64,000 nucleotides of DNA. Origin: Kaistia granuli DSM 23481. Its GTDB lineage: Bacteria > Pseudomonadota > Alphaproteobacteria > Rhizobiales > Kaistiaceae. The notes under the pieces were generated by a model. The model was not told where the DNA came from. It saw nothing but the letters and a program-made list of their open reading frames with translations, and made no database searches. Positions 29,921 through 57,453 of this stretch are shown one piece after another; the first letter of the stretch is position 1; each line of letters begins with the position of its first letter. Location: positions 62,001 to 126,000 of the forward strand of contig NZ_AQYH01000018.1 in the NCBI RefSeq assembly GCF_000380505.1. The letters are read 5' to 3'. The translations under genes and the position numbers were made by a program.

Positions 29921-30286
29921 TCAACCGCTGCCGCCGGCCGGCCTGGTCCTGGCCCTTTGCCGGATTTTGGGTTCGGTCGTGGTCGGCGGGACGTCCGTCG
30001 TCGCGGTGCCGGCGGCAGGCACGGGCCCGCCCTTGTCCCAGTCGATGTCGCGGGCGAGCTGCTCCATTTCGGCGCGCTCGGCCGCTATCGCCGCGTCGTA
30101 GCGCTGGATCATCTCCTGCTTCTGCGCTTCCAGTTGCTTGACGCGCGCGTCGATCTCGCCGACCCGCTCTTTGCGAAAGGCGAGCGGCATGGCGAGGATA
30201 TCTTCTGGCCGATCTGGCTTCGCCAAGCGTCCGGCTGCTTCATTTAGCCATTTGCGCTGCTCGTTCAGGATGTCGTCGATGCTCAT
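29921..30286 (-). CDS. Small coiled-coil protein at the end of the eCIS operon
   Basis: This 121-residue protein is unrecognised. The first half is charged and helical (SIDDILNEQRKWLNEAAGRL), followed by heptad-like ARVKQLEAQKQEMIQRYDAA and AIAAERAEMEQLARD, a likely coiled coil at residues ~45-85. The C-terminus is disordered, rich in Pro, Thr and Arg. The start MSIDD was taken because it follows an AGGTGG-type box; eight extra upstream codons are in frame. It lies 20 bp after the beta-helix gene. It could be a chaperone or a trimerisation partner of the tail spike; this is a guess from context. Confidence 0.6.
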   Translation of the reverse strand: MSIDDILNEQRKWLNEAAGRLAKPDRPEDILAMPLAFRKERVGEIDARVKQLEAQKQEMIQRYDAAIAAERAEMEQLARDIDWDKGGPVPAAGTATTDVPPTTTEPKIRQRARTRPAGGSG

Positions 30287-30306
30287 GATCCACCTGTGCC
30301 TTCCCG

Positions 30307-33300
30307 TCACATGATCTGGTTGAAATCGCCTTCGGGCGTCGGGAAATCGACATGATTGATGCTGCCGCCGGCTGTGACATTGCCGATGAACGGGCCCGGC
30401 ATGCTGTTGAAATTGACCGACGCGATTCGGCCGGGCATCGCCTTGATCTGATTGCCGCTGACGGTCGCGGCATTGCCGACCAGAACGACGGTCGCCTGAC
30501 GTTCATCGAACCTCTCAGCGATCACGTGGCTGCAATAATTGCCGTGGAAGAATACCCGGTCAAAGCGCGACCAGACTCGTTCATCCTGAGTGGGCTCCTG
30601 CGTCAATTCTACCAGGGCGGTGCGGCCGGTGCCGTAGAACTTGTTGGAGAGGATCTGGACCGGAAAGCCCAATCGCGCCCGCCCGTCGACTTCCGGGTCG
30701 GGCCCGTCAAAGGCGCCGCCCAGCAGCAACGCGCGATCTTCCCGCTCGCGGTCGCGCTCGCGTATATCCGTGTGGGTGACGAGATTGCTCTCGATGCGCG
30801 CCTCGAGGACATAGGTGCCGAAGATGCCTATTGCCTGCGGGGCCTGCACCTTGTTGTCAGGTGTCATGCCGGTATTGGTCACCTCGTTGGCCTCGACATG
30901 CAGTTCGCCGGCAACCATTTTGACGCCAATCCCGACCGCGCGCTCGGCCTCATAGGCGCAATGGGTGAAGCGGTTCTGGACGATGTCGGTTCGTCCGATG
31001 AGCGTGGAGCCCTGCATGCCGACGAGCGTCGTGTCGCTGATGCGGTTGCCCGTGATCGAGGCTCCGGTTTCTCCGGCGAGTGCCAGCCCAGCCTTCACGG
31101 AGGAGACGTCATTCTCGCTGAAGCGGCAAGCACGCCCCGACAAGCTGAAGAGCCCGCCGGAGACGCCCGACACGCGATTGCCGCTGACGAGGGTTTCCTG
31201 GCACTTGGTCAGAAAAATGCCGAAGGCGGTGCCCTCGCGCGTCCCGACCAGTGCGTTGTCCCGAATGGTGAGGCCACGCGCGAACGTCGCGATCACACCG
31301 TTCATCGCACCCTCCATGCGGTTGTCGGCGACGATGACCTCGATCGTGGGGACCCCGTTCTTTTCGGCCTCATAGCCGATCTGGATGCCGATCGGCATGC
31401 TGACGGCGACGGAGTCATCCGGCTTCGAGGTTATGACATTGCCGGTGACGACGGATTGAGAGCCGGCGGCGCGGATGCCGACATTGATGGCAGAATGGAG
31501 CCAGATCCGGTTTCCCGTGATCGTGGCTCGTGGTGCCGCGACGTCGATCGCGTACAGGCGGTTCGCGTCCTCTCGCTCGTATTGCGTCATGACGAAAATG
31601 TTGTCGATCACCGCTGATCCCTCGGCGGCCGATGAGGGGGCGTCGGTCGCGTGGGTGTCGTTGATGACGACGCCGAAGGCGCAGAATCCGATGCGGTTGC
31701 CAGAGATGGTGAGCGGGGCGCTCGATCCTTCCGACAAGATGCCGACCGGCCGCACGCGGCGATCCTCGCCGCCGGGCGCGATCAGATTGTCGGCGAAGAT
31801 CGGGCATTCGCAATAGCCTTGCATGCGAATCCCGACCTCGACCATGCGGATGGTCGAGCGCTCCACGCGCAGCCGGTCCGTCCGCAGCACCTCGATGCCG
31901 ACAACACGACGGGAATCGCGGTTCTCCATGCTGCAATCGAGGAAGGCGACATCATCGCAGCCGGCCAGCGAAACCACGCCTTCGCCGGACTCGATACTGG
32001 CGCGAAAGGCGATCGTCTCGACGCGGATCGCAATGCTCCGCTCGATCCGCAGCACCGATTGCCCGTTGGTCAGCGCGACGATGGTGCCGGGGCTCTCGCC
32101 TGTCAGTTTCACATTGGGCCGGCGGATGCGGATCGTATCACGCGGCTTGTGGACGCCGGCCTTTAGGCAGACGCAACCGCCCTCCGGCGGCAGCGCGTCG
32201 ATCGCGTCCTGGATGCTCTCTCCGACGGAAACCGTTATGCTGCAACAACATTCCTCGTCGCCGCCGTCTTCGGCGGGCGGTTGCGGCCGGCAGTCCGATA
32301 CCACCGGCGGCGCGCCGGCCGTGATGGCCGCGAGCTGGACGTAGTGGTGGCGGATATCGCGCGGTGGCGCCTTGACCAGCGTTTCCACCGAGGCATCGGC
32401 GACGCGGGCGGCGAACACCCAATGGTCGAACGTTCGGAAGCCGCCGCCTGCCGGCATCAGATCGAAGCTCACCTCGATGCCGTCCTCCAGCTCGATCGGG
32501 CCGGGGCCCGTCGAGATCAGCCCGTCGGCGTCGACCGTGTTGGTGGCGGCGGTCTGGTCCCAGCGCTGGATACGGGTGTGGCGGGCGACCAGTTCTGTCG
32601 GACTGGCGCCGAAGGCGCGGCCGCCGGGGGATGGCAGGGCGCGGTCGAGCACGATTTCATTGCGGGTCTCGTTGATGTCGATGACCCGCGCCATCTGGCC
32701 GGGCTCCCCCATCAATTCGCGGTGGTCGTCGGTGATGGTGACCCAGTCGTCGATGCGAAAGCGCAGCACGGGATCGCGACCGATGCGGTTGACCGTCAGT
32801 GTCGTCTGACCGCCAGCGACGGCCAGTGCGCGCACCACCGAGACCACCGAACCATTGTCACGCGACCACTTGAACCGCGCGACGCCCAGTCCGCCCGGGT
32901 CGTGGATCTCCACCCGGTACAGCCGGTTCTCCAGCCCGCGATAGCCGGCGATCGGCGGCAGCAGGCAGGGATCGCTTGGCGCGGGCGAAAGGATCGCGGC
33001 GGTTGACAGAAGGCCGGCGGAAGGCGCCTCGCCGACATCCATGCCGCAGGCCGCCGCGTCGCGGGCGTCGACCCGAACCTGCCAGACCGTCTGGGTCCTC
33101 GTCGTGGTATCGGCACCGCCGAGCGCGACGTCCAGCAGCGAGGCATCCTCGACATAGGTGATTTCACGCTCCCAGATATCGAGGAACACGACCGCGTCGC
33201 TTGCCGGCAGCGGCGGCGGGGCGGGATAGAAGGGCTGGGCGAGGTAGCTGGCGGTCTCGGTCTCGAAATGTTCGACGAGATTGCCTTCCACATAGAGCCG

Positions 33301-33546
33301 GCCTGGCTCGATGCTGAGGTTCGGGGTCGGCCCGCCGAGCCAACCGATCAGGAAGGCGTCCGGCGTCGTCTGGTAGGGCACGCCATAGGGGCCGAACGTG
33401 TCGAGCGACTGCAGTCGTTGCCGGCGCTTGGCGATGGCGACGAACTCGTTCCAGTCGGAATCCAGCTGAACGCGGCCCTGCTGCATCAGCACGCCGCTGC
33501 GCCGCTTCAGCGGGTCGTGCGTGAATCGCGTATAGTCTCCGCTCAT
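30307..33546 (-). CDS. eCIS DUF6519 / right-handed beta-helix protein (putative tail spike)
   Basis: The N-terminal ~230 residues match the DUF6519 pattern: SGDYTRFTHDPLKRRSGVLM, then QQGRVQLDSDWNEF. The middle contains VSVGESIQDAIDALPPEGGC, which begins a pectate-lyase-like parallel beta-helix. It is followed by many short coil repeats such as ITGNRIWLHS, VTGNVITSKP, VSGNRVSGVS and ITGNRISDTT, running to about residue 1060. The total is 1079 residues. Such helices form receptor-binding or glycan-binding spikes on phage tails. Placed after the baseplate genes, it is the best candidate for the fibre/spike role, since no Afp13-like fibre gene is seen. Enzyme activity on a polysaccharide is possible but no catalytic residues can be assigned. 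Confidence 0.78.
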   Translation of the reverse strand: MSGDYTRFTHDPLKRRSGVLMQQGRVQLDSDWNEFVAIAKRRQRLQSLDTFGPYGVPYQTTPDAFLIGWLGGPTPNLSIEPGRLYVEGNLVEHFETETASYLAQPFYPAPPPLPASDAVVFLDIWEREITYVEDASLLDVALGGADTTTRTQTVWQVRVDARDAAACGMDVGEAPSAGLLSTAAILSPAPSDPCLLPPIAGYRGLENRLYRVEIHDPGGLGVARFKWSRDNGSVVSVVRALAVAGGQTTLTVNRIGRDPVLRFRIDDWVTITDDHRELMGEPGQMARVIDINETRNEIVLDRALPSPGGRAFGASPTELVARHTRIQRWDQTAATNTVDADGLISTGPGPIELEDGIEVSFDLMPAGGGFRTFDHWVFAARVADASVETLVKAPPRDIRHHYVQLAAITAGAPPVVSDCRPQPPAEDGGDEECCCSITVSVGESIQDAIDALPPEGGCVCLKAGVHKPRDTIRIRRPNVKLTGESPGTIVALTNGQSVLRIERSIAIRVETIAFRASIESGEGVVSLAGCDDVAFLDCSMENRDSRRVVGIEVLRTDRLRVERSTIRMVEVGIRMQGYCECPIFADNLIAPGGEDRRVRPVGILSEGSSAPLTISGNRIGFCAFGVVINDTHATDAPSSAAEGSAVIDNIFVMTQYEREDANRLYAIDVAAPRATITGNRIWLHSAINVGIRAAGSQSVVTGNVITSKPDDSVAVSMPIGIQIGYEAEKNGVPTIEVIVADNRMEGAMNGVIATFARGLTIRDNALVGTREGTAFGIFLTKCQETLVSGNRVSGVSGGLFSLSGRACRFSENDVSSVKAGLALAGETGASITGNRISDTTLVGMQGSTLIGRTDIVQNRFTHCAYEAERAVGIGVKMVAGELHVEANEVTNTGMTPDNKVQAPQAIGIFGTYVLEARIESNLVTHTDIRERDREREDRALLLGGAFDGPDPEVDGRARLGFPVQILSNKFYGTGRTALVELTQEPTQDERVWSRFDRVFFHGNYCSHVIAERFDERQATVVLVGNAATVSGNQIKAMPGRIASVNFNSMPGPFIGNVTAGGSINHVDFPTPEGDFNQIM

Positions 33547-33567: not shown

Positions 33568-35826
33568 TTACGTTACGTAGATGAGGCCCGCCTCCAGGCC
33601 GAATGGCATATATTCCTCGAGCCGGATCGTCAGATTGGATTCGCGCTGCGGTTGCTTGAGGTGGCAGTAGACGCCGATCTCGGAGCCGTCTTCGGCGCCG
33701 AGCGCGATTTCCCTCGGACCGGCGAGCGACAATTGCAGATAGGCTGGCAGGCCATATTCCTCGGCCGAATACTCTGGCTTCACCCGTCGCTGTACCCTGG
33801 CTTCAACGGTGGCGCGCTGGACCGTCGTCAGCGGGCCCGACACGGCCTCCTCGGCCTCGATCGCCTTGGCGACTGCCAAAGACGGTTGGCAGCGATACTG
33901 CCGCGGCAGGCGCGAGCCGGCGGGGACGTAGCAGAAGCGGACGCAGCCGCGCTGGAGGCGCTCGGCGCGGGCGATGCCGTCGAAGATGGTCTCGGTGGCG
34001 AACGCCATTTCGCGCACCCGGCACGCCCCGCGCAGGGTCGAGCGCTCGACGTGCAAAGGCGGACCCGCCGCCCCGGCAGCGCCGGGCGCTGTGAGAGCGT
34101 CGCTACCCGCGCCGTCGAGAATGCTGTCCAGCACGAAGACGCCTTCAGCATGCTCCGGAACACGGAGCGGCCCCGTGATGGAGAAGGCGATCTCCAGCCG
34201 GAATTCCGTATTGATCGGCGCGCCGGCGGGGTCGGCTGCCGCGATCTCGACCGAGGCGGGCGGAGGTGCCGGCGCCCCGGCGGGCTCGGTGATGCTGCCG
34301 CCGGGCACCAGCGTCGTGTGCAGCAACCGCAGCCGCTTGAGACTGCCCGTCACCTGGAGAGTGCCTTCGACCAGGAGGCCGCCGAGCGTGAGGCTGGCAT
34401 CGGGATGGTCGCCGGTCACAGTAAGCGGCCCGTTCAGCCGCAGATGGGGGCGGAAGCCGTCGGCGGCCTCAATCGCCAGGAGGCGGCCGGTCTCCGGCTC
34501 GATGGTGATCGCTTCCGCATAGGTACGGTTGTCGCGGATGCGGATGATGGCATTGGGCTTCAGCGCGGCCGTCCACGCTGCGAGTGCGGCGCCGATGGTG
34601 GGAAACACGTTGGGATCGCCGCTGCCGCCGACCAGCAAGATCTGGTCGGCCAATTTGGCGCTGGTGAGCCAGGCGCGGCGTGCATAGGGACCGCCACCGA
34701 GATCGGCCGGGAAGCCGTAGTGATAGGACACCTCGACGCTGGCGGCGGGTGTGAGATTGGGCCCCAGCGTGAGCCGCCCCAGCGCGACGTCGACGGCGAC
34801 GAAATCGGTGGGCGGGGCGGACCAGACGCCGAGATTGCGACAGACTATGCGGTCTGCCGGAATCGGGGCGCCGTCGACGGTTATGCTGAAACTGGGGTGC
34901 GGGGCGGCCGGGACCGGGGGCCGGGCATCGAACAGCCCGTAGCATTCGCTATGCGGGGGATGCGGCAACGGCAGGGCGTGGTGCGCGCGCAGATCCTCGT
35001 AGAAGAGGGCGGGGCGGATCGCCTGCGGCACGTGCCACTCGGTGGCGAGCCCGGTCTCGTCGCCTTCCGGCCGCCGCCGGCTGAACAGCGGGGCGGAACG
35101 GCCAAGCTGCGAGAAGAAATAGCGAAAATCGCCGGAATTGCCGAGCCGCCGCGCCTCCGCCGACTCGATCGGGTAGGCGCCGAGCCGCCACAGGAAAAAG
35201 CCGATGTTGCGGATGTTGTGGCGACCGTCCAGCTGACCGACAGGGCGCACATCGACGGTATGGCAGATGACGTCGAAGGCGGTGCCGAGTCGGTCCATGA
35301 ATTCCGGGGAGCGGATGTCCGGCGTCCGTGGCGCGACGGGGCGCTGGTGATTGCGCAGCCATTGCGTCCATCCGATGCTTTCGAAGAACTCCACCGCATG
35401 TGCTGCCCAGCCGGTGACGTCGCGCGCCAGTTCCTCCAGCATTGGCGCCGTACCCTTGCGGCGCCGGTAATAGATGGTCTTGGCAATATCCGCCCGGTTG
35501 CGCAGCGCAATGGCGGGCTTCAGGTTCGGCCCTTCCAGCTCCGGGAACAGCTCCTGCGCCATGTCGCCGTCGCGCACGCGGCTTTCGTCGAACAGCGGCG
35601 TGGTACCGACGAGATCGCCGATATAGGGGACGACCCAGGGCTCGGCGGTTTCGATGAAGGCGTTGGCGTGCACCTGCGCGATGTTCGCCTCGACCGTGTC
35701 CGCCTGGCGCTCGACGATTTCCAGCAGCGCCCGCAGAGGCTCGCCGCGACCGGCGTCCTGCTCGCGGATATAGGCTGGCAGCAGATGATAGAGCTTGTCG
35801 TCCTTGCGGGTGGAGTAGGCCATCAT
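33568..35826 (-). CDS. eCIS baseplate protein: phage tail protein I-like N-terminus with beta-rich C-terminus
   Basis: This 752-residue protein begins with KLYHLLPAYIREQDAGRGEP and LRALLEIVERQADTVEANI, the pattern of P2 gpI/Afp12-like baseplate wedge proteins, followed by WVVPYIGDLVG and YYRRRKGTAPMLEELARDVT. From about residue 390 it contains a second part with FPTIGAALAAWTAALKPNAI, RNRTYAEAI-like and strand-rich segments (LTVTGDHPDASLTLGGLLVE), resembling a short beta-helix or beta-solenoid. The start overlaps the previous stop (ATGA), with GGAGG just upstream. It should attach the spike or fibre to the baseplate. The N-terminal assignment is firmer than that of the C-terminus. Confidence 0.78.
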   Translation of the reverse strand: MMAYSTRKDDKLYHLLPAYIREQDAGRGEPLRALLEIVERQADTVEANIAQVHANAFIETAEPWVVPYIGDLVGTTPLFDESRVRDGDMAQELFPELEGPNLKPAIALRNRADIAKTIYYRRRKGTAPMLEELARDVTGWAAHAVEFFESIGWTQWLRNHQRPVAPRTPDIRSPEFMDRLGTAFDVICHTVDVRPVGQLDGRHNIRNIGFFLWRLGAYPIESAEARRLGNSGDFRYFFSQLGRSAPLFSRRRPEGDETGLATEWHVPQAIRPALFYEDLRAHHALPLPHPPHSECYGLFDARPPVPAAPHPSFSITVDGAPIPADRIVCRNLGVWSAPPTDFVAVDVALGRLTLGPNLTPAASVEVSYHYGFPADLGGGPYARRAWLTSAKLADQILLVGGSGDPNVFPTIGAALAAWTAALKPNAIIRIRDNRTYAEAITIEPETGRLLAIEAADGFRPHLRLNGPLTVTGDHPDASLTLGGLLVEGTLQVTGSLKRLRLLHTTLVPGGSITEPAGAPAPPPASVEIAAADPAGAPINTEFRLEIAFSITGPLRVPEHAEGVFVLDSILDGAGSDALTAPGAAGAAGPPLHVERSTLRGACRVREMAFATETIFDGIARAERLQRGCVRFCYVPAGSRLPRQYRCQPSLAVAKAIEAEEAVSGPLTTVQRATVEARVQRRVKPEYSAEEYGLPAYLQLSLAGPREIALGAEDGSEIGVYCHLKQPQRESNLTIRLEEYMPFGLEAGLIYVT

Positions 35827-38800
35827 AGCGCCTCCACCACGGTGAGCGAGACATCGGCGGGATCGAGGATCGCGGCCTGTTCGGCCGCCAGCACCGGCGG
35901 TATCGCGCTGCCGTCGAAGCCGGCACGGGCGAATCGATCGATCTGGGCGGGATCGGCGGGGCTCGGGCGGGCCGGATAGATCCGGATATGCGGCTGCACC
36001 GGCGCGATGGTGATCGAGCGCACGCCGCGTTCCGTCGCGCTGAGGTCCAGATAGCCCTTGAGCTGGAACAGATCGACATCCACCGCCCGGACGCCCGTCA
36101 CCTCCTGCAGTCGGGCGAAAATTGAGCTGGCATGCACCGCCGCTCCAACCTCTTGCGCCTCGAACGCGAAGGCCGCCAGCAGATGGGCCCGTGCCCGCGC
36201 GGCGATGTTGTCGGCCTCATAGGCAGGGTCGCGCAGCAGCCTGGCACGGATGACCAGAGGCACACGCACGAGGGCAGAGAGCACCAGCGGACGATTGGTG
36301 TCGCGGATGGTGTTCAGCGAGGCGTGCAGATCGTCGAGCGCTTCGGTCGACAACGTTGTCCCGCCCACCGCCGCGACGGTCAGGTGCACGGTGCGTTGCA
36401 GGTCGAGCCAGACCCATGTGGCGAAGGCCCGGGCGATAAGGCCGGAGGCCATGGCAAGGCCTTCGAAATCCTGCAGCGAGACGGCGCGTCCGAAGGTCTT
36501 CACCGAGGCTGGGGCGGCCCGGCGGGCATCGTCACGGGCTTCCGCATCGGCGCCGCCGTCGCTCGGCAGCGGGTTGTGCACGCCGCGCAGGCCGACGGGT
36601 CGTTCCAGCGGGATCGCCAGTTGTCCCGCGCGAACCCGGCCCTGCAGCCCAAGCCCGGTGCGGTAGCGTGCCGTCACGTTCATCGCCCCGGTCTTCAGCC
36701 GTGCGCCGGTCCGACCGTCACCGAAGCCGACTCGCGTCTGCCCGGCATCGTTCTGGCGCAACGTGTAGACGCGATCGGTGGATCTGGCGCCGTAGAGGCT
36801 TGGCACCTGTTGCCACAGTTCGTCATTGACGCGGATTTCGATCTCCGCCTTGCCGCCGGCGTCCTGGCGCGAGGGCAGGTAGGTCAGTGGCCCGCGGCTG
36901 AGCGGGAAGCTCTGGAACGCCTTGGTCGCGTCGCCATTGCCCAGCGGCTCGAAGCCCGGCGTGCCGTCAGGATTGGCGCTCAACGGCTGACTCTCGCCGT
37001 GGCTGGTCTCGGCGACGTTGCCAAGCATGCGGACCTCGCCGGCAAGGCCGTCTACCGGGGGAACGAAATCGACCAGCAAGTGGTCGGGATCGCCGCCGGG
37101 ACTGGTCGAAAACTCCGTGCTCGCCGTGACCCGAACGCCGAGCTGGCGCGCCCCGTTGTCGAGGATCAGCCGTCGACCCTTGGCGATGCCTTCCAGCCCG
37201 GTGGCGCCGACGAGGGCGATGGCGAGACGGCCTCCGGTGAGCTGCGTCGGATAGCCGTGGGGGCGCAACGCGATGTCGGGGCGCGACAGCCGGTACATCC
37301 GGGTGTGGCGCCGGTCGGGAATCGCGTCGAGGCCGAAGCCGATCGGCGCCCATGCGGACCACTCGCCGCCGGTGAAGGCGCGGAACGACACACCGCCATC
37401 GCCGTCGCGGACGAAGATGCGGAGTACGCCGTTCTGGATCGCGCAGGTCGGAACCGAGGTGACGGGGCCGCGCAGGCTGGACCAGGCTGTCCAGTTGGTG
37501 CCGGTGCGCTGCGTCGTCCAGACGTCGCTGTCGCGTCCGCGCGCGAAGACCATCAGGAGTCCGGCCCCGGTTACAGCCAGCGCGGGCTCGCCCTCGACGT
37601 CGCCGCCGAGGTCGAGCCAGTCGCTCCACGCCGTGCCGTCAAAGTGGCGATGGCGCAGCCTGCCGTCTGGGCCGGTGATGAACAGCTCCGGCCGCCCTGG
37701 CGTCGGGAGCGCCAGGACCGGCGTCGCAGCTGCGACGCCGCCGAGCGACATGAAGCCGGACCAGCCCGCCGGGCCCTTGACGGCATGCCAGATGCCCCGA
37801 TCTGTGCCGCGCGCCACGACGTCGACGCGGCTGCCGTCGAAGGTCGCGATTGTGGGGGCCGAAGTGGCCGCCATCGTGAGAGTCTGGTCCTCGACGATGC
37901 CGCCGGCGCCGATGCGCAGCACGCGCACCTTGCCATTCACGCTGGTGCAGGCGACCACCGCCTGACCGCCCGGGTGCCACACGGCGGCCGGCCGGGCGAG
38001 CGTTGCGCCGCCGAGCACCGACACGCTCCAGCCCGCGCCGGAGCGGAATGCCTGCATCAGCCGGCCTGCGTCGTCGCGGTAGAACAAATCGACGTCGTGC
38101 GGGCCGCCATTGACAGCAGCCGGCTCGTCACAGGCATGCGCTTCCTGGCCCGCAGCCTTGACGACGGTGTCGATCTGCGAACCACCGCCGCGCAGCAGCA
38201 GTTGGAGCACGCCGGCGCCCGAGCGGGTGGCCACGCGCAACGAACCAATTGGCAGACCGGCGGGCGCCGCCACGGGTACCGGCCGGCCGCTTATGGTCTG
38301 TCGCAGCGTGGTGTGGGTGACGCTGTCCGAGAGTGGACCGACCGCGGTGGCGAGGCGGTCCTCCGCGGCGTGCACGACCGCGGTGCGCAGGCGGGGCACG
38401 CCGGCGCCGCAATCGATCAAGAACTGGTCTCCCGGTTTGACGTCGTCATGTCGCGCGTCGAGCGGATATTGGGTCTGGGCAGGACCGAACGAAGCGTCGA
38501 TCGGGGTCGTTTTCCAGCGTTTGTGCGGCGGCGTGGCAGGGTTGGTATCGTAGATGTTGTGACTGGCCGGAGCGTTGTAGCCGAAGAACCGCAGGCGCTT
38601 GTCGGCGCGCGCCAGCCGCGCCACTTCCGGCCGCAGCCCATCGGCCTGGATTGGCGGATCGAATCCCAGCCGTTCGCCGTCGGCGCGCCGGTCGAGCGCA
38701 GTGACGGTCTTCTCCTCGATCGTTCCAAGGCCGAAGGCGACGACACGGTCGCCGATCGACAGCGGGTCGGGTCGTGATAGGGCTATAGCGGAGGCACTGC

Positions 38801-41964: not shown

Positions 41965-42342
41965 CTAGACCGCCTCCGACTTGACGAAGGTATCTTCCAT
42001 CCGTTCGCCGGTGGTGCGCCGCCGATAGACCACGCTGACTTCCAGGCGTTCGTCGACGGCGTTGACCGATACGCGTTCCACCAGGATGACGGCGTCGAGC
42101 CACCGCAGCAGCGAGCCATGGATGAGCTGTTCGGTCGCCGCGGCCAGCGCATCGGAGGCCGGGGCGAAGGTGAGCTGCTTCACGCCGCTGCCGAATTCCG
42201 GCCGGTTCACCCGCTCGCCGGGATTGGTGAAGATCACCTGGCGGATCAGGTCGCGCACATGCTCGTCGGCATTGGTCAGCGCCGAGCGGCCGCGCTCGTC
42301 AATGGCGAAGGGAAAGTCCAGAAAGAGAGGTTCCGTCGCCAT
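41965..42342 (-). CDS. eCIS baseplate protein, GPW/gp25 family (Afp9-like)
   Basis: This 125-residue protein has the gp25 signature: FLDFPFAIDERGRSALTNAD, then HVRDLIRQVIFTNPGERVNR and PEFGSGVKQLTF. Gp25 joins the baseplate wedge to the first sheath ring and starts sheath assembly. Its length is normal. GGGAG lies five bases before the ATG. It is followed directly by the baseplate J-like gene. Confidence 0.92.
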   Translation of the reverse strand: MATEPLFLDFPFAIDERGRSALTNADEHVRDLIRQVIFTNPGERVNRPEFGSGVKQLTFAPASDALAAATEQLIHGSLLRWLDAVILVERVSVNAVDERLEVSVVYRRRTTGERMEDTFVKSEAV

Positions 42343-44811: not shown

Positions 44812-45465
44812 TCAGATTGGCAGCAGGGAGCGGATTTCAGTGGCGTCCTCGAACGTGTTGAGTGCGGCCATCACTTCCTTCTGCGTGAAGGAGGCCATGT
44901 AGACCCAGTAGCCCGGATTGGTGATGCTGAGGTCGCGATAGGTCAGGACCTTCAGCGAAATCTCTACCTTGGCGCGGATTGGATTGAGCTTCTGGTCGAA
45001 AGCTTCTTCGCGGATCGAGAGGGACTGCACTTGCACGGGTAGCACCCGGCGCGGCCCCCAGACCAGCAGGGCCAGCGGCGACTGTTCCCCCAGGATGAAG
45101 GCGCTGCCGGCGAAGGCCAGAGCCTGGTTGGCGATGACGAGCGGGTAGGGAGGATAGGTCAATCCTTCCAGCGCCGCGATGATCGGATGCAGGCCGTTCG
45201 CGACTGCGAGCGCATTCTGCGCCGGGTGCTCGAGCTGGTCGGCGGCGTCGATCTCGACCGTAAAGGAAAGCGTTTCCTCCGGCGGGCCATTGACCCGGTT
45301 GGCGTCGCCCCGCCCACCACCGGACGCGCCGCGCATCTGCAGCGAGCGCGTGACCTCGTCGGGGTTGTACTGAAACACGATGATCGTCGGCAGAAGCTCG
45401 GGGAACTGATAAGCGACGATGCCGCCTTTCAGCAAATGCGGGCTTCCTGGAAAACTGGAAGGCAT
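44812..45465 (-). CDS. eCIS contractile injection system tube-adaptor protein (Afp7-like, CIS_tube domain)
   Basis: This 217-residue protein matches the CIS tube N-terminal domain. It contains FPELLPTIIVFQYNPDEVTR, SLQMRGASGG, then LSFTVEIDAADQLEHPAQNA, and the strand PLALLVWGPRRVLPVQVQSL, SIREEAFDQKLNPIRAKVEI, SLKVLTYRDL. It forms the first tube layer above the hub. The 117-bp gap to the upstream DUF4157-OmpA gene is the widest inside the operon. GGAGGTTG lies about eight bases ahead of ATG. Confidence 0.88.
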   Translation of the reverse strand: MPSSFPGSPHLLKGGIVAYQFPELLPTIIVFQYNPDEVTRSLQMRGASGGGRGDANRVNGPPEETLSFTVEIDAADQLEHPAQNALAVANGLHPIIAALEGLTYPPYPLVIANQALAFAGSAFILGEQSPLALLVWGPRRVLPVQVQSLSIREEAFDQKLNPIRAKVEISLKVLTYRDLSITNPGYWVYMASFTQKEVMAALNTFEDATEIRSLLPI

Positions 45466-48087: not shown

Positions 48088-49667
48088 GGGCCACCCACCG
48101 GCTTGGGCTTCTTCAGCTTCAGCCGCCGGATCAAAGCGGCGACAGTGGCGGCGCGGTTGGCTGGCCAGAAGAGGTCCTTCCAGTAGGTCTCGATGCGGTC
48201 GGCCGTATAGTAGGAGTAGAGCGGCGCGTCTTCCGCCGCATTGTCGCCGGGCAGGTCCCGGTTGGCGGCCGAATAGGCTCTGTAGAAGACGACCTCCAGC
48301 TCGGCCGAGGCGGCTGCGACGAAGCCGGCGTCGCTTGTCGCGACGCTGTAACCCTGCGCATTGATCTCGGTGGCGAGTTCCGCGATCACTCCGGCGCGCA
48401 GGCCGCCGAACACGAATTTTGCGGCGTAGGACTCGCCCTCCGCGCCCTTTCCGGCACGGGTCTCGAATACCCTGAGTGCGAAGTTCCGGCTGGTGTGGCC
48501 GACGGTGGTGTGGCCCCAGACGGAGCCGGCGTCGATCTTCTCGTCGGCTAGCGTGTCGCGCACAAGGGAGGCGAGCGAGCCCTTGCCGCCGCTGCGCATG
48601 GTGCCTTTGACCCAGTCCTCCTCCTCGTCGGTGCCGCGCGCCGAACTGCACGTGTAGAGCACGACCCGCACGGTGGGGGACAGACTGGGGGCGATCTTCT
48701 TGAACACGGCCCCTGCGTTGCCGACCGTAAGGCCGGCGCTGCACCATTGCGGCGTGCCATGCGCGAAAATGGCGATGGCCCTGACCTTGCCCGGCGCCGC
48801 CGCCGTGGCTGGCGGATAGTTCGCCGGCGCCGGCACCCGCGCCAGCGCGTCGTTGACCACCTTGGCGATGGCCGGGACCGTGGCGTCGATCGTCCGGACG
48901 CTGGGGATCGCCTTGCCGAAAACGAGATTGGCGGCGTCGATGCCCGTCCCCTTGAGGCCGATCGCATTCTCGCGCGTGGCGAAATCGGCCGCCCGCCGCT
49001 GCGCCTCCGGCTCGTTCTCGTCATAGAAGGCGAGCGCAAAGCCGTTCGAAAAGCCGGGCCCGCGCAGCGTGTTGCCGAGTTCGAGCTCCGCGTCGGCAGG
49101 CTTGGCGGTCTGTGGCCCGTCACGCTGGATGCGCAGGGCGCCGCTGCGCTGCTGCAACACATGCGCCAGCTCATGGGCGATCAGGCGCCGCCCCGATGCG
49201 GTTCCGGGCGCATAGGCGCCGGGGGCGAAGGCGATATCGTTACCGTAGGTATAAGCGCGCGCGCCGATGGCGTTCGCAGCCGTTGCCGCCGGAGCATCGG
49301 TATGCAGCCGCACGCCGGCGAGATCGGCGCCGAAGCGGGGTTCGAAATAGGAGCGCAGCGGCGAGGGCATGGCTTGACCGCCCGCCGCGACGGCGTCGGC
49401 CGCCCGCTGGCCATTGCCTCCGCCGGCCCGCTCGCTGGCCGAAACGCGCTGCACCTTGACCGGCGCAGGATGGAGGCCGGACGCACGCCCGCCGGCGGAG
49501 ATGGTGTCGGCGGCGCGATCAGCCTGCTGTTCCAGCGTGTCGCCGGCGCTGCCGATCGCGATGGAAGGGCGCAGTCGATCGGCCAAAGCCTCCGTCGGAG
49601 GCTGACGCCGGCCGACGGACGCGCGGATCGTTCGCGCGGAACTCGCGCAGCGCACCGCCTGTCTCAC
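48084..49667 (-). CDS. eCIS core (DUF4157) protein with candidate caspase-like C-terminal domain
   Basis: This 527-residue protein has the DUF4157 domain at residues ~95-175: AMPSPLRSYFEPRFGADLAG, VRLHTDAPAATAANAIGARA and RLIAHELAHVLQQ (H165, E166, H169). After it, residues ~290-400 show two hydrophobic strands, one ending in AIAIFAHGTPQ (H303) and one in VRVVLYTCSSARG (C340), then GGKGSLASLVRDTL and GSVWGHTTVGHTSR. That spacing is like clan CD cysteine peptidases (caspase, CHAT, C80). The remaining ~110 residues are unrecognised. The start is GTG overlapping the previous TGA, with GGGAGGA ahead. It is paralogous to the neighbouring DUF4157 protein in its first half. I take it as a cargo candidate. 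Confidence 0.78.
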   Translation of the reverse strand: MRQAVRCASSARTIRASVGRRQPPTEALADRLRPSIAIGSAGDTLEQQADRAADTISAGGRASGLHPAPVKVQRVSASERAGGGNGQRAADAVAAGGQAMPSPLRSYFEPRFGADLAGVRLHTDAPAATAANAIGARAYTYGNDIAFAPGAYAPGTASGRRLIAHELAHVLQQRSGALRIQRDGPQTAKPADAELELGNTLRGPGFSNGFALAFYDENEPEAQRRAADFATRENAIGLKGTGIDAANLVFGKAIPSVRTIDATVPAIAKVVNDALARVPAPANYPPATAAAPGKVRAIAIFAHGTPQWCSAGLTVGNAGAVFKKIAPSLSPTVRVVLYTCSSARGTDEEEDWVKGTMRSGGKGSLASLVRDTLADEKIDAGSVWGHTTVGHTSRNFALRVFETRAGKGAEGESYAAKFVFGGLRAGVIAELATEINAQGYSVATSDAGFVAAASAELEVVFYRAYSAANRDLPGDNAAEDAPLYSYYTADRIETYWKDLFWPANRAATVAALIRRLKLKKPKPVGGP

Positions 49668-49883
49668 GGCTTCCTCCCGAGTTCCGCCGCGATCGCGCGC
49701 CGCAGCGCTTCGCGCATGGTCCGAGCATCGGCATTGGCGGGGAGACGAACCCGCAGGCGTTCGATGTGACGGTCCACCGCCGGCGGCGCGGCGCCCACCG
49801 CGGCTTCGGTCGCGGCTCGCACATGGTCGGCGAGGCCGGCCCGCATGGTAGCGGTGGCGAAGGGCGAGGAGGAGCGGGCGCCA

Positions 49884-49894
<11 letters not shown>
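49664..49894 (-). CDS. Unrecognised 76-residue eCIS protein
   Basis: This is a short helical, Arg/Ala-rich protein: MRAGLADHVRAATEAAVGAA, PPAVDRHIERLRVRLPANAD, ARTMREALRRAIAAELGRK. The start is a GTG with GGAGG six bases before it, overlapping the end of the AAA+ ATPase gene by 11 bp; its stop overlaps the GTG of the DUF4157 gene by 4 bp. The tight coupling on both sides supports it as a real gene. It could be a small chaperone or loading factor for the following DUF4157 protein; this comes from position only. Confidence 0.68.
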
Positions 49895-51899
<2,005 letters not shown>

Positions 51900-51906: not shown

Positions 51907-53229
51907 TCACGGCGTCAGGGTGAAGTCGAACGAGCGGCGGCTGCGGGCGCCGTCGATCTCGACGGCGACCGGGTAGGCGGTTCCGGCGGGCGGCGGGTCT
52001 GGCAGCAGCGCCGCGGCCTCCGAAACCGGAATTTCGATCTGGATGGGCGTCGGCGCCGCCCATGGATCGGCACCGACCGGCGGCCGGATGCGCACCGCCG
52101 CGTCGCCGATCACCGTCCAGGCCTCGCGGGCAGCGGGCCACCAGAGACGCGTGCCATGAATTTGCAGCAAGACGCCGGGGCTGCCGGCGGCCGGGTTGAT
52201 GGCGGTGATCTCGGGCACCAGCTGCATCAGCGCGACGTTGGAGGCGAAGCGGCGCTCCGCGACCAGGCTGGCGCCCCTGTCCAGCGCGCCCGCCACGCCC
52301 TCGACCCCGTTCATGGCGATCAGTTGCACCTCCAGCAGTCCGGGTTGCAGGCGCTGGGCCGGCGGGATCGGGCGCAGAGCCGGTATGTCGAGGTCCGGCG
52401 GGTATTGATCGTCGGGAATGCGGATGCGGTAGCGCCCGTCGGCGCTGGGCGGCAGCCGGATCGGATCGAGCCCGCCCAGGCGCACATAGATGCGCTCGGC
52501 GTTGGCGGCGTCGGCCTCGATGCTGATTTCCTCGCCGACCGAGACGCGCATCTCGCCGATTGGCTCCGATCCGATCGGCGTCACATAGGCGCGGCGCACC
52601 ACTGGGCGGCGGTTCGGGCCGGAGAGGACCTGACGGCTCTGCACCGGCGGCGCGCGACGCGCCGGTTCGGTCGTCTCGATCTGCACCACCTTGACCTCGT
52701 AAACTACTGAGCGGCGGAAGTTCTCCTCCGACAGCGCCGACCAGAGCTTGGTGATGTCGTCGAGGCTGCCGGGATGCAGGCGGAGCTTCACCCGCTCATA
52801 TTCGCCGGCTAGCGCCGGGTCGAGGATCGGATCGCCAATGGTGCCGGCGGTCGCCCGGGTTACATTCAGCGCGTCGATTCGATTGCCGAAGAAATGCAGA
52901 ACGCGCATGGCGTCGCCCAGCAGCGTCTGGGCATTGAGATCGGCATCGGCGGTGGTCTCGATGGCGCTATGGGTTGTCATCAGATAGCGCAGGTCGAGCG
53001 CCAACGGCGGCCGGCCGTAGCCGCCCGAGCCGCTGCCTGGGATTTCCTGGTTGGCGAGGTGCGGGTTTTCCTGCACCTGGTACAAATAGAGATTGATGCG
53101 CGCGCCCTCGATGCCTGCGACCTCGATATCCGGCGGCGCCAGCGTTACCTCGGAGGCAATCGCCATGCGGTCGCGCAGCAGGGTGCGGAGCGAGCGGCTG
53201 ACGGCGGCGATGGCGGAATGATCGGCCAT
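51907..53229 (-). CDS. eCIS tube/sheath cap protein, DUF4255 (Pvc16/Afp16-like)
   Basis: This 440-residue protein has the N-terminal ~190 residues typical of DUF4255/Pvc16_N: SAIAAVSRSLRTLLRDRM, then INLYLYQVQENPHLANQEIP, LALDLRYLMTTHSAIETTAD and MRVLHFFGNRIDALNVTRAT. Afp16 ends tube and sheath polymerisation at the distal end. The C-terminal 230 residues are strand-rich, with an IPT/Ig-like feel (ITAINPAAGSPGVLLQIHGT), and are longer than in Afp16. In membrane-anchored CIS the cap links to the envelope, so the extra Ig-like part deserves attention. Confidence 0.87.
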   Translation of the reverse strand: MADHSAIAAVSRSLRTLLRDRMAIASEVTLAPPDIEVAGIEGARINLYLYQVQENPHLANQEIPGSGSGGYGRPPLALDLRYLMTTHSAIETTADADLNAQTLLGDAMRVLHFFGNRIDALNVTRATAGTIGDPILDPALAGEYERVKLRLHPGSLDDITKLWSALSEENFRRSVVYEVKVVQIETTEPARRAPPVQSRQVLSGPNRRPVVRRAYVTPIGSEPIGEMRVSVGEEISIEADAANAERIYVRLGGLDPIRLPPSADGRYRIRIPDDQYPPDLDIPALRPIPPAQRLQPGLLEVQLIAMNGVEGVAGALDRGASLVAERRFASNVALMQLVPEITAINPAAGSPGVLLQIHGTRLWWPAAREAWTVIGDAAVRIRPPVGADPWAAPTPIQIEIPVSEAAALLPDPPPAGTAYPVAVEIDGARSRRSFDFTLTP

Positions 53230-53232
53230 GCT

Positions 53233-54012
53233 TCACCGCCGACCACGCCGGATATCTTCATAGCCGGCAAATCCCCGGCTGCGCTGGGGTCCGGGTCGCG
53301 CCGCTGCCCGGGCCTGAACCGGGGCGGGCAGGATTTCGACCTCGATGCGGCCGATCGAGACGGAAACCGCAGGCGCCCCCGCCGCGACCGGCATGCGTTC
53401 GGCCATAGCCGGACCTTCCTCGTGGTGGGTCGGTAGCGGCGTGAGCCGTGCTTCCTGGGCAAGGGGCTCGCCGAACGCGCGCAGAGGCGGCGGATCGTAT
53501 GTCTCCGATGGATCCCGCGCTGTGGTCGGATTGGGCGTCGGCCCCTCGAAATGCAGGAACGCCGGTTGGATTTCATCGATCTCCGGCGGCGCCGGCTCGC
53601 GGCGCATGGCGACGGGCGGCTCCTGGGCTCGGCCTGACACCAGCCGGGCCGCGTCCTGCCGTACTGGTACGGCCGGAATCGTGATCGCGACAGCGCTTGG
53701 CGGCGCGGCGGTCGGTTCCCGGGGAGATCGGGGCGCGGTTCGGGGTGGCGGCTCCGCGCGGGTCGCGTCGAGCGCTGGCGTTCCCCGCGCTGGCGTCGGC
53801 GCGGGCTGGGCAGTGGACCGGCCTGGCATGCCCGTGGCGATCTCTTCCAACTGCCCCGTATCGGATCGAGCGTCTGGCTCGGCATCCATCGTCGCCGTCC
53901 AGGCAGCCTGGCCCGGCTCGAAGCGCGTGACCGGGCGCGGGGTCAACATCGGCGTGCCGGCGGGGCTCTGGCCGGTGGCGCGGGCGACGAGGGAAGGGAA
54001 CAGCCCGCTCAC
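53233..54012 (-). CDS. Pro/Ala-rich eCIS-linked protein of unknown function
   Basis: This 259-residue protein is mostly disordered: long stretches of Pro, Ala, Arg and Thr, with few hydrophobic blocks. A short ordered C-terminal block, AVSVSIGRIEVEILPAPVQA, is the only compact strand pair. The start is a GTG with AGGAGG seven bases before it, overlapping the stop of the upstream gene by 4 bp. It sits between the Cys-rich baseplate-type gene and the DUF4255 cap. Similar Pro-rich proteins with a C-terminal strand motif occur in this position in other eCIS loci as far as I recall. A tape-measure role is unlikely given 259 residues and no long helix. Confidence 0.68.
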   Translation of the reverse strand: MSGLFPSLVARATGQSPAGTPMLTPRPVTRFEPGQAAWTATMDAEPDARSDTGQLEEIATGMPGRSTAQPAPTPARGTPALDATRAEPPPRTAPRSPREPTAAPPSAVAITIPAVPVRQDAARLVSGRAQEPPVAMRREPAPPEIDEIQPAFLHFEGPTPNPTTARDPSETYDPPPLRAFGEPLAQEARLTPLPTHHEEGPAMAERMPVAAGAPAVSVSIGRIEVEILPAPVQARAAARPGPQRSRGFAGYEDIRRGRR

Positions 54013-54839
54013 CGGATGGCCTCCTGGCTGGCGGCCAGGTCAAGATAGCGCCGGCGGCGTTGGCGGGGCAGGGCAAGGATCTCCGCCTCGCTCCAGTGAT
54101 AGACGCGGGCGAGGCGGGCCACCTCCGCGTGGATGCCCTCGCCCATGGCGCATCGGGCGCGCAGGATCGCGCCGGCGTCGAGCAGGGCTTGGGTCGCTGT
54201 CCCGCATGTGGGGCATGTGACCGCGATGCGGATATCGGCTTCTGGGTCCCGATGTTCCACCTCCCTGGCGAGCCTATCGAGGAGGGGAGGATCGCACGGT
54301 CCGGACGACTCGCTGGCGGCCACGAGGCAACGCGCAACGAGTGCATCAGCGGCGGCGGCGGGGTTGGTCCGGCCGAGCTCCGCCACGGTCTCCAGGTCGC
54401 CGGCCGTCGGCAAGTGACAGGTCACCTGCGTCTCGCCTTCGGCAATTGTGAAAGTCTGCGCGCCGTCACCTCGTCCCGGCCGCCCGGCGAGGAATGTGGC
54501 AAGGTCGAGCTGCAATTCGATGGTTTCGCCGCAGCCTTCCTTGCCGCAGCTCAGCACCATGTCGGCGGTGCCGGCGAAATTCGCGGCATAGGCGGCGAGC
54601 AGCAGCCGTTCGCGGTCACCGAGGCTTAGCGACCGCACGACGGGAAGACCGACCGGGCTGCCGGATGCCAGATCGAGTGTGCAAGCCGCCAGCAACCGGT
54701 TCGCCCAGGCCGCCGGCGTTAGGCTGGTTTGTTCCTCCAGTTGCATCTCGTCGCCGCCCGTCAACGGGCGCACCACCAATTGCAGCGCGACGGCCCCGTC
54801 GCTTCGCCATCCATTCCTGAGGTCGACGACGAGGCTCAT
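54009..54839 (-). CDS. Cys-rich eCIS protein, possibly gp26-like baseplate/assembly factor
   Basis: This 276-residue protein begins SLVVDLRNGWRSDGAVALQL. It contains SCGKEGCGETIELQLDLATF and AVTCPTCGTATQALLDAGAI, two CxxC-like pairs (C-G-K-E-G-C and C-P-T-C) that together could bind one zinc ion. C-terminal RVYHWSEAEILALPRQRRRR resembles the tail of the T4 gp26-like chaperone/hub family of phage baseplates, which ends with Y-x-W-x-x-x-E-I-x-x-L-P. It follows the tube gene and likely assists hub or tube assembly. I am confident it belongs to the operon and less so about the family. Confidence 0.68.
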   Translation of the reverse strand: MSLVVDLRNGWRSDGAVALQLVVRPLTGGDEMQLEEQTSLTPAAWANRLLAACTLDLASGSPVGLPVVRSLSLGDRERLLLAAYAANFAGTADMVLSCGKEGCGETIELQLDLATFLAGRPGRGDGAQTFTIAEGETQVTCHLPTAGDLETVAELGRTNPAAAADALVARCLVAASESSGPCDPPLLDRLAREVEHRDPEADIRIAVTCPTCGTATQALLDAGAILRARCAMGEGIHAEVARLARVYHWSEAEILALPRQRRRRYLDLAASQEAIR

Positions 54840-54869
54840 GTCGGGTTCGTGTCCGTGTTGATGCGTGGG

Positions 54870-55394
54870 CTATTCCGGGTTGTTGAAGGCCGGCTCGGCC
54901 GGCTCCGCCACCGAGAGGTCGCGCTCCCAGCCTTCGTTTTCGAGCTTGAGAGTCTGGATCGCCACGGCATTGGCGTTGGCGTCGAATTCCGGCAGCGCCT
55001 GGTATTCCGAGACCCAGCAGCGATAGACGAAATAGGACAGCACGGTCTGGCCGGACTCGTTGAAGACGTCGATGATGACGTCCTTGCGGAAGTCGGCCAG
55101 CGAGACTTCGCCGCCATTGGTACCGCCGAAATTCCAGACCTTGTTGGCCCAGCGCTCGAATTCGAGATCGTGCGTCACGCCGCGTTCCAGCGTGATCGCC
55201 TCGTATTTGGAACGGCCCGGCGATTTGCGCGATGTGCTCGGGTCGCCGCCGTCACGGTGCTCGACCACTTCGGTGGTGCGCCGCAGCGCCGAGATCTTGC
55301 TGACCCCGGCGACGTAGCGCCCGTCCCAACGGATGCGGAACTTGAAGTTCTTGTAGGGATCGAAACGTCGCGGATTGACCGTGAACTGAGCCAT
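54870..55394 (-). CDS. eCIS tube protein (T4 gp19-like)
   Basis: This 174-residue inner-tube subunit contains PYKNFKFRIRWDGRYVAGVS and KISALRRTTEVVEHRDGGD, then the polymerisation-strand region KYEAITLERGVTHDLEFERW, and VYRCWVSEYQALPEFDANAN, AVAIQTLKLENEGWERD. This is the conserved gp19 tail-tube pattern (Hcp fold). Only one tube gene is visible, whereas Afp carries two. GAGGAAC precedes the ATG. The gene follows the sheath gene directly. Confidence 0.92.
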   Translation of the reverse strand: MAQFTVNPRRFDPYKNFKFRIRWDGRYVAGVSKISALRRTTEVVEHRDGGDPSTSRKSPGRSKYEAITLERGVTHDLEFERWANKVWNFGGTNGGEVSLADFRKDVIIDVFNESGQTVLSYFVYRCWVSEYQALPEFDANANAVAIQTLKLENEGWERDLSVAEPAEPAFNNPE

Positions 55395-55404
55395 GTCGGG
55401 TTCC

Positions 55405-57453
55405 TCAGACGTCCGCCTGCCGGGCGATTTGCTGGATCTTGAGGATGACGAACTCGGCCGGCTTCAGCGGTGCGAAGCCCACCTCGATGTTGACGATGCC
55501 GTTGTCGATGTCCTGCTGCGTCGTCGTCTCGCCGTCGCATTTGACAAAATAGGCCTCGCGCGGCGACTTGCCCTGGAAGGCGCCCTTACGGAAGAGGTCC
55601 TGCATGAACGCCCCGACATTGAGCCGGATCTGCGCCCAGAGCGGCTCGTCGTTCGGCTCGAACACCACCCATTGAGCGCCGCGGTAGAGGCTTTCCTCAA
55701 GGAAGAGTGTGATGCGCCGCACCGGTATGTACTTGAAGTCCGACGCGATGACGTCGGCGCCTTCCAGCGTGCGCGCCCCCCAGCAGATGCTGGAATAAAC
55801 CGGGAAGGTGCGCAGGCAGTTGACGCCGAGCGGGTTGAGCACGCCATTCTGCTGGTCGGTGAGATTATAGTCCAGCATCACCACGTTGCGCAGCCGGGCG
55901 TCCGTCCCGGCCGGCGCCTTCCAGACGCCGCGCTCGCCGTCGGTGCGCGCCCACAGGCCGGCGATCGTGCCGCTGTTGGAAAGCGAGCGCGGGCGGTTGC
56001 GGTTGAGTGGGTCCGGCACATGGGAGCGGGGGTAGTAGACCGCTGCATTGGAGTGCCGCAGCACCGCATTGTCCGCCAGCCAGGTCTGCATGTCGTCGAG
56101 ATCGCGTATGGCTTCGGGAATGTCGACGATGAGCATGGCACGGCGATCGCGGACATAGTTCTCCGCCTCGGTATAGAGGCTCTGCATGTCGCCGGGCGAC
56201 AGGGTGGTCGCTTCGGGAATGCAGAGGATGTTGAACAGGTCGACATCCTCCAGCGCATACATGCCGGTCTTCGGCACCAGCGAACCGCGGAAGAAGCCAA
56301 CCGGGATTGGTCGATGCGTCGTGCCGACCGCGGGAGGGCGCCCGTCGCGCCCACCGGCAAGCGGTTGCTGCTGCGCATTGACCACGGCGCCGTTGGCGGA
56401 GGCAAGGCGAATGCCGCTGGCGCCGCCGACCGCCGCCGCGCCGCTGAAGTCGACCGTGACGCCAGGGTCAAACGGCCGCGCGCCCCTGCCGAGGGTGACC
56501 AGGAAGCGGAACGGATTGGCCGTCGAATTGTCGCCGAGCAGCCGCACGCTGGCGCCGGCAAGCAGCGGCTTCTGGGCATCGGCGAGCGACGCCGCTGCCC
56601 GGTGGATCGCTTCCTCGACGAAGGGCCGGAGCTGGGCATAGCTGGTTGGCGGCGGCCCGCCATAGGTGATCGTGCCGTTGATGGTTGGCGTGCCGCTGAG
56701 CGTGACATTGAACGCCGCCCCGTCGGCGGGGATCGCGGTCGTCGTCGGCAGAGCCCCCCCGAGGGTACCGCTTGAGGCGGGCCTGACCCAGGGTGTGCCG
56801 GGCGCCGGGGCGGCGAGCGGCGGCAGGCCATCGCGATTGAGCTGTACGAGCTGGGAACCCTGGTTGACGACCTCCAGCGCATTGTTCGGCGTGTCCGGCT
56901 CCAAGGTGAGGTTCCGGAACGTCTCGGTCTGCAGCACGAGGGTGCGGTCGCCGTCGAGGCGCACTTCCTGCACCGAGAGATTGAACAGGTTCGCGGGGTC
57001 GGCGGTGTCGTAGTTCACCTCGATCCGAATGAAGTTGCCCCAGAAGCCGGGATTCTCGGCCGGTTCGCCACGGATGCGACGGCCGGCGATCACGCGGAAC
57101 ACCTGCACGCCCCCCCCCGGCACCGACGCGACCAGCACCGCTGCGGTGTTGGCGTTGGTCGGCGGGGCATCGGCGGCGCCGGTCGCGGTGTCCGCGACCC
57201 GCACGACCCAGGCCTCGGAGCCGCCGTTCAGGAAGAATTGCTGGATGGTGTAGCTGGTCTCGCTGTTGCGATCGATGCCGCCATATTCGCGCTCGAAATC
57301 GCTGATCGAGAAGATCTGTACCGCTTCGTCGAGCAGCCCCTTGCGAAAGCTGCCGACGAACGCCGCGACCGATGTCGCGACGCCGCGAATGGTGCGCACA
57401 CCGCTGGAGATTTCCTCGATATAGACGCCGGGATAGGTCGGATTAACGGGCAT
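55405..57453 (-). CDS. eCIS contractile sheath protein
   Basis: The N-terminus PVNPTYPGVYIEEISSGVRT, IRGVATSVAAFVGSF is the canonical sheath signature. The C-terminal ~250 residues include EAENYVRDRRAMLIVDIPEA, RNVVMLDYNLTDQQNGVLNP, LGVNCLRTFPVYSSICWGAR and TLFLEESLYRGAQWVVFEPN, the conserved sheath core. At 682 residues it is longer than a basic sheath (~480) because of an outer domain at about residues 185-375 (GTLGGALPTTTAIPADGAAF and PTINGTITYGG region). It polymerises around the tube and contracts on firing. The start has GGAGG five bases ahead. It is the first gene of the operon. Confidence 0.94.
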   Translation of the reverse strand: MPVNPTYPGVYIEEISSGVRTIRGVATSVAAFVGSFRKGLLDEAVQIFSISDFEREYGGIDRNSETSYTIQQFFLNGGSEAWVVRVADTATGAADAPPTNANTAAVLVASVPGGGVQVFRVIAGRRIRGEPAENPGFWGNFIRIEVNYDTADPANLFNLSVQEVRLDGDRTLVLQTETFRNLTLEPDTPNNALEVVNQGSQLVQLNRDGLPPLAAPAPGTPWVRPASSGTLGGALPTTTAIPADGAAFNVTLSGTPTINGTITYGGPPPTSYAQLRPFVEEAIHRAAASLADAQKPLLAGASVRLLGDNSTANPFRFLVTLGRGARPFDPGVTVDFSGAAAVGGASGIRLASANGAVVNAQQQPLAGGRDGRPPAVGTTHRPIPVGFFRGSLVPKTGMYALEDVDLFNILCIPEATTLSPGDMQSLYTEAENYVRDRRAMLIVDIPEAIRDLDDMQTWLADNAVLRHSNAAVYYPRSHVPDPLNRNRPRSLSNSGTIAGLWARTDGERGVWKAPAGTDARLRNVVMLDYNLTDQQNGVLNPLGVNCLRTFPVYSSICWGARTLEGADVIASDFKYIPVRRITLFLEESLYRGAQWVVFEPNDEPLWAQIRLNVGAFMQDLFRKGAFQGKSPREAYFVKCDGETTTQQDIDNGIVNIEVGFAPLKPAEFVILKIQQIARQADV

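Follow-up and report, generated by a model that had tools for sequence, protein, structure and literature searches.

A lectin-type propeller built into a baseplate protein of an eCIS-family contractile injection system in Kaistia granuli

How contact with a target becomes firing is an open question for contractile injectors, and the locus described here raises it for a single baseplate protein. The locus lies at positions 29921-57453 of a 64,000-nucleotide stretch (the window) of Kaistia granuli DSM 23481 (RefSeq assembly GCF_000380505.1, contig NZ_AQYH01000018.1, positions 62,001 to 126,000), and its 20 genes, c01 to c20, encode a contractile injection system (CIS) of the extracellular (eCIS) family. 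eCIS with a DUF6519 (eBAP5) fibre are already known, and loci syntenic to this one occur from Alphaproteobacteria to Streptomyces and Nostoc. The new element of this locus is a lectin-type propeller that sits inside the baseplate protein c17, missed by the original prediction that a model had made from the sequence alone.

The host protein c17 (35823..39353; this and all following genes are on the minus strand) is the second of two Cis11-like baseplate J proteins (J2; TIGR02243, E 6.7e-59) and has 1176 aa, with its start placed at 39353 from a conserved FCSCC N-terminus. The propeller, of the seven-bladed PLL/PHL type, covers 320 aa of it (37341..38300, minus strand; residues 352-671, or 338-657 in a 1162-aa reading). 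When c17 was searched by sequence against the PDB, eight Photorhabdus lectins were recovered, from PHL at the top (6.5e-52) down to PLL types at 4.5e-35, and no baseplate proteins were among the matches. Membership of the PLL/PHL family was assigned from these matches together with the seven-bladed fold, the latter seen in a predicted model of c17 (pLDDT 84). Compared with the J2 of Kaistia soli, c17 has about 320 extra residues between flanks that are 44-48% identical, and the same site holds 14-30 residues in 12 other J2s, two of which recur in the set of loci described below. Family, predicted fold and clean insertion are established here; the Photorhabdus PLL/PHL lectins are free-standing, whereas that of the window lies within a baseplate protein.

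The distribution of the insert was followed in the best 80 of 250 loci found, a sample that is thus skewed toward near relatives. In 72 of the 80, the J2 was well matched by both half-profiles (the other eight were dropped), and the insertion site holds at most 46 residues in 64 of these and 252-351 residues in eight. Six of the eight long inserts are propellers of the window's type, found in Hansschlegelia, a Chromatiales metagenome-assembled genome (MAG), an alphaproteobacterial MAG, Alloyangia pacifica, Sphingomonas quercus and a Rhodobacteraceae genome. The insert of a Solibacteraceae MAG was missed in the search with the window's propeller, yet it matches PHL at 1.3e-32, and a Brocadiaceae J2 (L054:13672-14643) has this site filled by a different insert of 252 aa, for which the PDB gave no match. 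Searched with a profile of the inserts, the 80 loci showed propellers in seven J2s (the six relatives and Solibacteraceae) and nowhere else. The insert is less conserved than its host, its identity being below that of the rest of J2 in 21 of 21 pairs among the seven J2s of the window and these six relatives; between Hansschlegelia and the window, for instance, the propellers are 54% and the remaining parts of J2 67% identical. Apart from this, the J2 of an Ardenticatenaceae locus (L101, counted among the 64) has another large insert upstream of the slot, at residues ~296-720, with an end that by eye is hydrophobic and glycine-rich, and PLL-like repeats occur in large proteins off any recognised eCIS cassette in L044 (G344) and L033 (a Streptomyces plasmid).

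The surrounding cassette appears to be mobile. The synteny comparison suggested with the original prediction was run, and the whole gene order proved common to loci on plasmids of Rhizobium, Novosphingobium and Ensifer, while the half from the spike to DUF6519 is common to annotated Streptomyces plasmids, one comparison showing the J genes and what follows them; the stretch that varies among these relatives lies between the ATPase and c10 and contains the DUF4157 genes. Gene content and synteny are established for this locus. The closest counterpart, in Hansschlegelia zhihuaiae S113 (L045/G336), has an identical gene order and a propeller in its J2 (19 of the 20 window genes were found by tblastn, and c07 weakly by phmmer), although it belongs to another family of the order. 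In Kaistia soli (L050, G001:C7), the cassette is arranged in two divergent blocks, from the sheath to DUF4157 on one strand and from c10 onwards on the other. Within the genus, an ATPase of the cassette type (E <1e-100) is found in 4 of 14 genomes (the window's, G001, G004 and G007); the matches in the other ten, at 4e-18 or weaker, were interpreted as general AAA proteins, and these ten include the nearest congeners by GuaA (G012, 97%; G008, 93%). A quick tree of the first baseplate J protein (J1), built from the 80 loci and the window with SH-aLRT values and no bootstrap, places the window sister to Hansschlegelia zhihuaiae, Kaistia soli sister to Pseudomonas syringae GR12-2 (L048), and Mesorhizobium sp. 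BR1-1-16, a congener in GTDB, sister to a Rhizobiaceae MAG, each with an SH-aLRT of 100. Three congeners with three non-sister versions of J1 point to spread of the cassette by horizontal transfer, and the pairing of Kaistia soli with P. syringae likely reflects a transfer across classes. The window, the six rows with its type of propeller, and these two without it form a nine-row clade, and since K. soli and P. syringae fall inside this clade, the seven PLL rows (window included) require two changes, either a gain and a loss or two gains. The Solibacteraceae row lies far from the clade, next to Chloroflexota loci without insert, and on the simplest reading the slot was probably filled a second time there, or the domain was transferred.

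What a lectin fold might do in a baseplate is best approached through the neighbours of c17 and through systems already described. The first Cis11-like protein, J1, is c16 (39356..41962; TIGR02243, a "putative baseplate assembly protein" model, 1.8e-65). The wedge partner c18 (33568..35826; kin in 70 of 80 loci) is assigned by position to Tail_P2_I/Cis12: it gave a weak Phage_Mu_Gp48 match (0.039), none above cut-off and none to the Tail_P2_I Pfam model, and its counterpart on annotated Streptomyces plasmids sits between J2 and DUF6519. The fibre protein c19 (30307..33546) combines DUF6519 (PF20129, 1.7e-45) with a right-handed beta helix (PF13229, 1.5e-15) in the place expected for the eBAP5 subtype. 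The eBAP5 eCIS of PMC12923769 (Nat Commun 2026) likewise join baseplate J genes to a protein placed as Tail_P2_I and to a DUF6519 fibre with a beta helix, and a "mega pectin lyase" fibre of Rhizobium grahamii is pictured in that study; the missing Pfam match of c18 departs from this pattern. As far as the accessible text of that study goes, its catalogue is one of fibre proteins, and the propellers that it mentions, three times in all, belong to eBAP3 fibres and not to Cis11. The best non-lectin match to the window's J2 is the CIS of Streptomyces coelicolor (CIS-Sc, PDB 9GTP). According to the parts of PMC12237407 considered here, it resembles the window in its two Cis11 per wedge and in having no tape measure gene, none having been recognised in the window; its wedge also holds one Cis12, its Cis11 is peripheral, and it has no conventional fibre gene and a Cis11 chain of 652 aa without lectin. 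A DUF6519 fibre and two different genes for Cis11-like proteins set the window apart from CIS-Sc. Alg11, the Cis11 of AlgoCIS, is, like c17, enlarged by an extra domain with a proposed carbohydrate role, namely a cage with two putative carbohydrate modules; the AlgoCIS fibres bound to beads without firing, and a second contact via the cage was proposed (PMC13314943, PMC8894135).

By analogy with these systems, we propose that a capped sheath and tube would be assembled on a baseplate whose wedge would consist of c16, c17 and c18, with Cis11 exposed, and that the beta-helix fibre c19 would make the first contact. The propeller of c17 would then read a glycan close to the target surface, perhaps a fucosylated or O-methylated one, as PLL lectins favour such sugars (PMC12203525). 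This putative second contact would shift Cis11, the baseplate would open and the sheath contract, and c08 and c09, the two DUF4157 proteins, would reach the target through the tube. Sugar binding by this propeller and a role for it in setting off the firing are what we infer, and we lean toward the proposal as a whole. A wider version, in which the second Cis11 of two-Cis11 eCIS would offer one constant site that took up lectin propellers on more than one occasion, the baseplate thereby serving as a glycan sensor that inspects the target surface before firing and independently of the fibres, is held more tentatively, at somewhat less than even chances.

Several points weigh against this proposal. 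Blades 1-3 of the window's propeller look degenerate by eye, and the propeller is absent from the near cassettes of Kaistia soli and Pseudomonas syringae GR12-2 and is therefore dispensable for the machine. Domain IV of Alg11 consists of two modules resembling carbohydrate-binding modules within the cage, whereas c17 has a seven-bladed PLL-type propeller, and the two insertion sites need not be homologous. Finally, neither a membrane anchor nor a release gene was identified, so that the extracellular mode is unproven. The first alternative to be considered, which we regard as unlikely though by no means negligible, is that the eCIS is an ordinary one and its propeller only decorates the baseplate or makes it more stable, for example by touching its neighbours in the wedge, and has no glycan role, the DUF6519 fibre alone doing the targeting. 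Such a fibre is indeed present, Kaistia soli retains the neighbouring baseplate and fibre genes without any propeller, and the extra Cis11 domains of tCIS have been assigned structural roles (PMC8894136, in the portion consulted). What speaks for a glycan role instead is that the nearest solved relatives of the domain are lectins, that in a distant second lineage this slot is likewise taken by a PLL-type propeller, and that the insert varies faster than the remaining J2.

The second alternative concerns where the machine acts. That the particle leaves the cell is suggested by the fibre gene and the absent complex of the type VI secretion system (T6SS); similar architectures act intracellularly in Streptomyces or held at the membrane in haloarchaea (PMC12237407, PMC11566945). 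In a cell-retained CIS of either kind, the propeller would tether the baseplate to glycans of the cell's own envelope or meet them after lysis. The window lacks a recognised tape measure, as do both of these systems, and a recognised plug and crown, as does the haloarchaeal one, in so far as the cited passages describe them; it also has two Cis11, and c09 combines an OmpA-like domain with a single hydrophobic stretch. We nevertheless consider cell retention improbable, as a DUF6519 fibre gene is present, in contrast to the S. coelicolor cluster. Likewise, hydropathy exceeds 2.0 in c09 alone of the 20 proteins (maximum 2.32 at residue 451), with c17 reaching 2.0, and neither CisA nor the anchor of haloarchaea had a counterpart that was recognised, though no search was aimed at either.

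The assignment to the eCIS family, and to neither a prophage nor a T6SS as originally predicted, relies on several results. Using Pfam and NCBIfam models in place of the authors' profiles, at least 10 core genes (sheath, tube, spike, gp25, baseplate J, cap, ATPase, DUF4157) were found in one cluster, in line with the definition of at least 10 core genes per cluster in PMC8213781, and one of the eCIS-specific core genes (Afp12, 13, 14 or 16) is represented by c05, with Pvc16_N (Afp16) at 5.4e-36. The sheath and tube match CIS structures first; TssM (PF06761), the sole T6SS membrane family searched, has no match genome-wide with a positive E. coli control. Family searches of the 20 proteins, with the flanking genes left to naming by eye, gave no head, packaging, lysis or T6SS membrane gene, which agrees with the predicted lack of capsid, terminase, lysis and T6SS membrane genes. 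A decaying prophage tail or tailocin is very improbable: the structural parts do share ancestry with phage tails, but all 20 frames are open, the DUF4157, Pvc16_N and AAA parts are marks of eCIS, none of the 752 phage records (of 50,697) that match the sheath c01 covers 80% of it, the sole genome match to the HK97-type capsid (PF05065; terminase was not searched genome-wide) is on contig C10 and not on the window's C18, and none of eight integrase matches is on C18. A separate baseplate J gene (PF04865) at G000:C8:564566-564994 of the same genome is perhaps phage-related. The system had been called complete-looking, which calls for a qualification: family search of the 20 proteins recognised neither a tape measure nor a plug, PAAR or crown, and diverged versions could be hidden among the family-less c04, c07 and c14. 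The tape measure (Afp14) is not strictly defining, being reported absent from CIS-Sc and haloarchaeal CIS in the available text. The host was rightly seen as Hyphomicrobiales-like, with Kaistia soli DSM 19436 and Mesorhizobium sp. BR1-1-16 as congeners.

As predicted, the 20 uninterrupted reading frames run in one direction, and are transcribed from the sheath gene c01 at the right end to c20 at the left. Junctions measure at most 30 bp in 18 of 19 cases, the exception being c09/c10 with 117 bp, and the "many" 4-bp overlaps amount, fairly enough, to five of 19 (c03/c04, c07/c08, c08/c09, c17/c18 and c19/c20, the last provided that the 30310 GTG is the start of c20, and with c07 taken as 49664-49894); c06 and c07 overlap by 11 bp. 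A gap of ~490 bp 5' of c01 (57454-57941) contains AT-rich stretches and is likely the promoter region of the operon. The cluster is flanked on the left by guaA and a YCII-like gene and on the right by YggS-like and MocR-like genes, all named by eye.

Profile searches bore out the predicted sheath, tube, DUF4255 cap, AAA+ protein, gpV spike, gp25 and baseplate J proteins. The sheath c01 (Cis2; 55405..57453; PF17482, 1.3e-10) has 9ezm (7.9e-73) and 8bky (1.6e-71, identical in sequence to one in the S. coelicolor CIS entry 9gtp) as best PDB chains, with T4-type phage sheaths at merely ~1e-7. The inner tube c02 (Cis1; 54870..55394; PF06841, 4e-44), T4-type by family search, matches the tubes of AlgoCIS (1.9e-14) and tCIS (8.1e-14) and is 69-89% identical across seven syntenic relatives. 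It is followed by c03 (54009..54839), a T4_baseplate-like protein with Cys pairs (PF12322 at 3.9e-5, just under cut-off; phrog_150, 9.2e-5), and by c04 (53233..54012), proline-rich by composition, for which Pfam and PHROG-type searches gave no family, the genomes only a 32-residue match in Hansschlegelia, and phmmer no match among the 80 loci, most of which end before its place. The cap/terminator c05 (Cis16; 51907..53229) matches Pvc16_N (DUF4255, PF14065) as given above, and c06 (Cis15; 49884..51899) is an AAA+ ATPase with a winged helix (PF00004, 2e-27; PF22977, 1.6e-16). The open frame c07 (49664..49894, 76 aa, uncertain GTG start) gave no match in family searches, and 3 of the 80 loci contain weakly matching relatives.

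In the baseplate half, the predicted tube adaptor and gpD hub do find matches, weaker than implied and under cut-off: PF19266 at 2.2e-5 for c10 (44812..45465), and NF033848 (VgrG_rel) at 4e-7, besides phrog_52 at 3e-7 and no Pfam match, for the gpD/VgrG-like c12 (43380..44513). The supposed LysM protein c11 (44518..44802) did not match the LysM profile and instead, by a weak match, seems to be a small baseplate-wedge/Cis7-like protein (phrog_7145, phage baseplate wedge, 1.3e-6). The gpV-type spike c13 (42654..43367) has an OB domain (PF04717, Phage_base_V, 2.8e-20), and c15 (41965..42342) is the gp25 sheath initiator Cis9 (PF04965, 2.1e-14). Between them, the conserved 94-aa protein c14 (42353..42637), for which no family was found, has kin in 11 of 80 loci, exactly those in the window's clade of the J1 tree. 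The small c20 (29921..30310, or from an ATG at 30286; kin in 10 of 80 loci) closes the operon.

The two predicted DUF4157 proteins were recovered as c08 (48084..49667; eCIS_core, PF13699, 1.3e-30) and c09 (45583..48087; PF13699, 3.7e-31). As DUF4157 marks many eCIS toxins (PMC8213781), c08 is probable cargo, and c09 probably cargo or a tip protein. The C-terminal 332 aa of c08 (48087-49082) hold the conserved motifs FAHG, LYTCSSARG and GSVWGHTTVGHTSRN, and have kin in only one of 80 loci (Hansschlegelia, 74% identical), against DUF4157 relatives in 56; this domain was found in no genome but its own among 398 of the phylum, has no Pfam or PDB match, and its model reaches a pLDDT of 40. Its HG and YTC motifs, kept in two sequences, recall the pattern of clan CD cysteine peptidases, which every test left unconfirmed. 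In c09, an OmpA-like domain (PF00691, 3.7e-14) and a Gly/Val hydrophobic stretch precede a family-less C-terminal part with kin in 2 of 80 loci; the joining of DUF4157 to an OmpA-like domain was not met in the literature searched.

For contractile injectors at large, the 2026 AlgoCIS study proposed, in the part seen, a second contact through Cis11, perhaps with a carbohydrate and with an unknown receptor (PMC13314943). The lectin fold in c17 fits this proposal and makes it testable, since a well-studied lectin family within Cis11 itself provides a testable class of ligands, and close cassettes without the propeller a natural comparison of machines with and without it. It also suggests that catalogues restricted to fibre genes can overlook receptor-binding parts.
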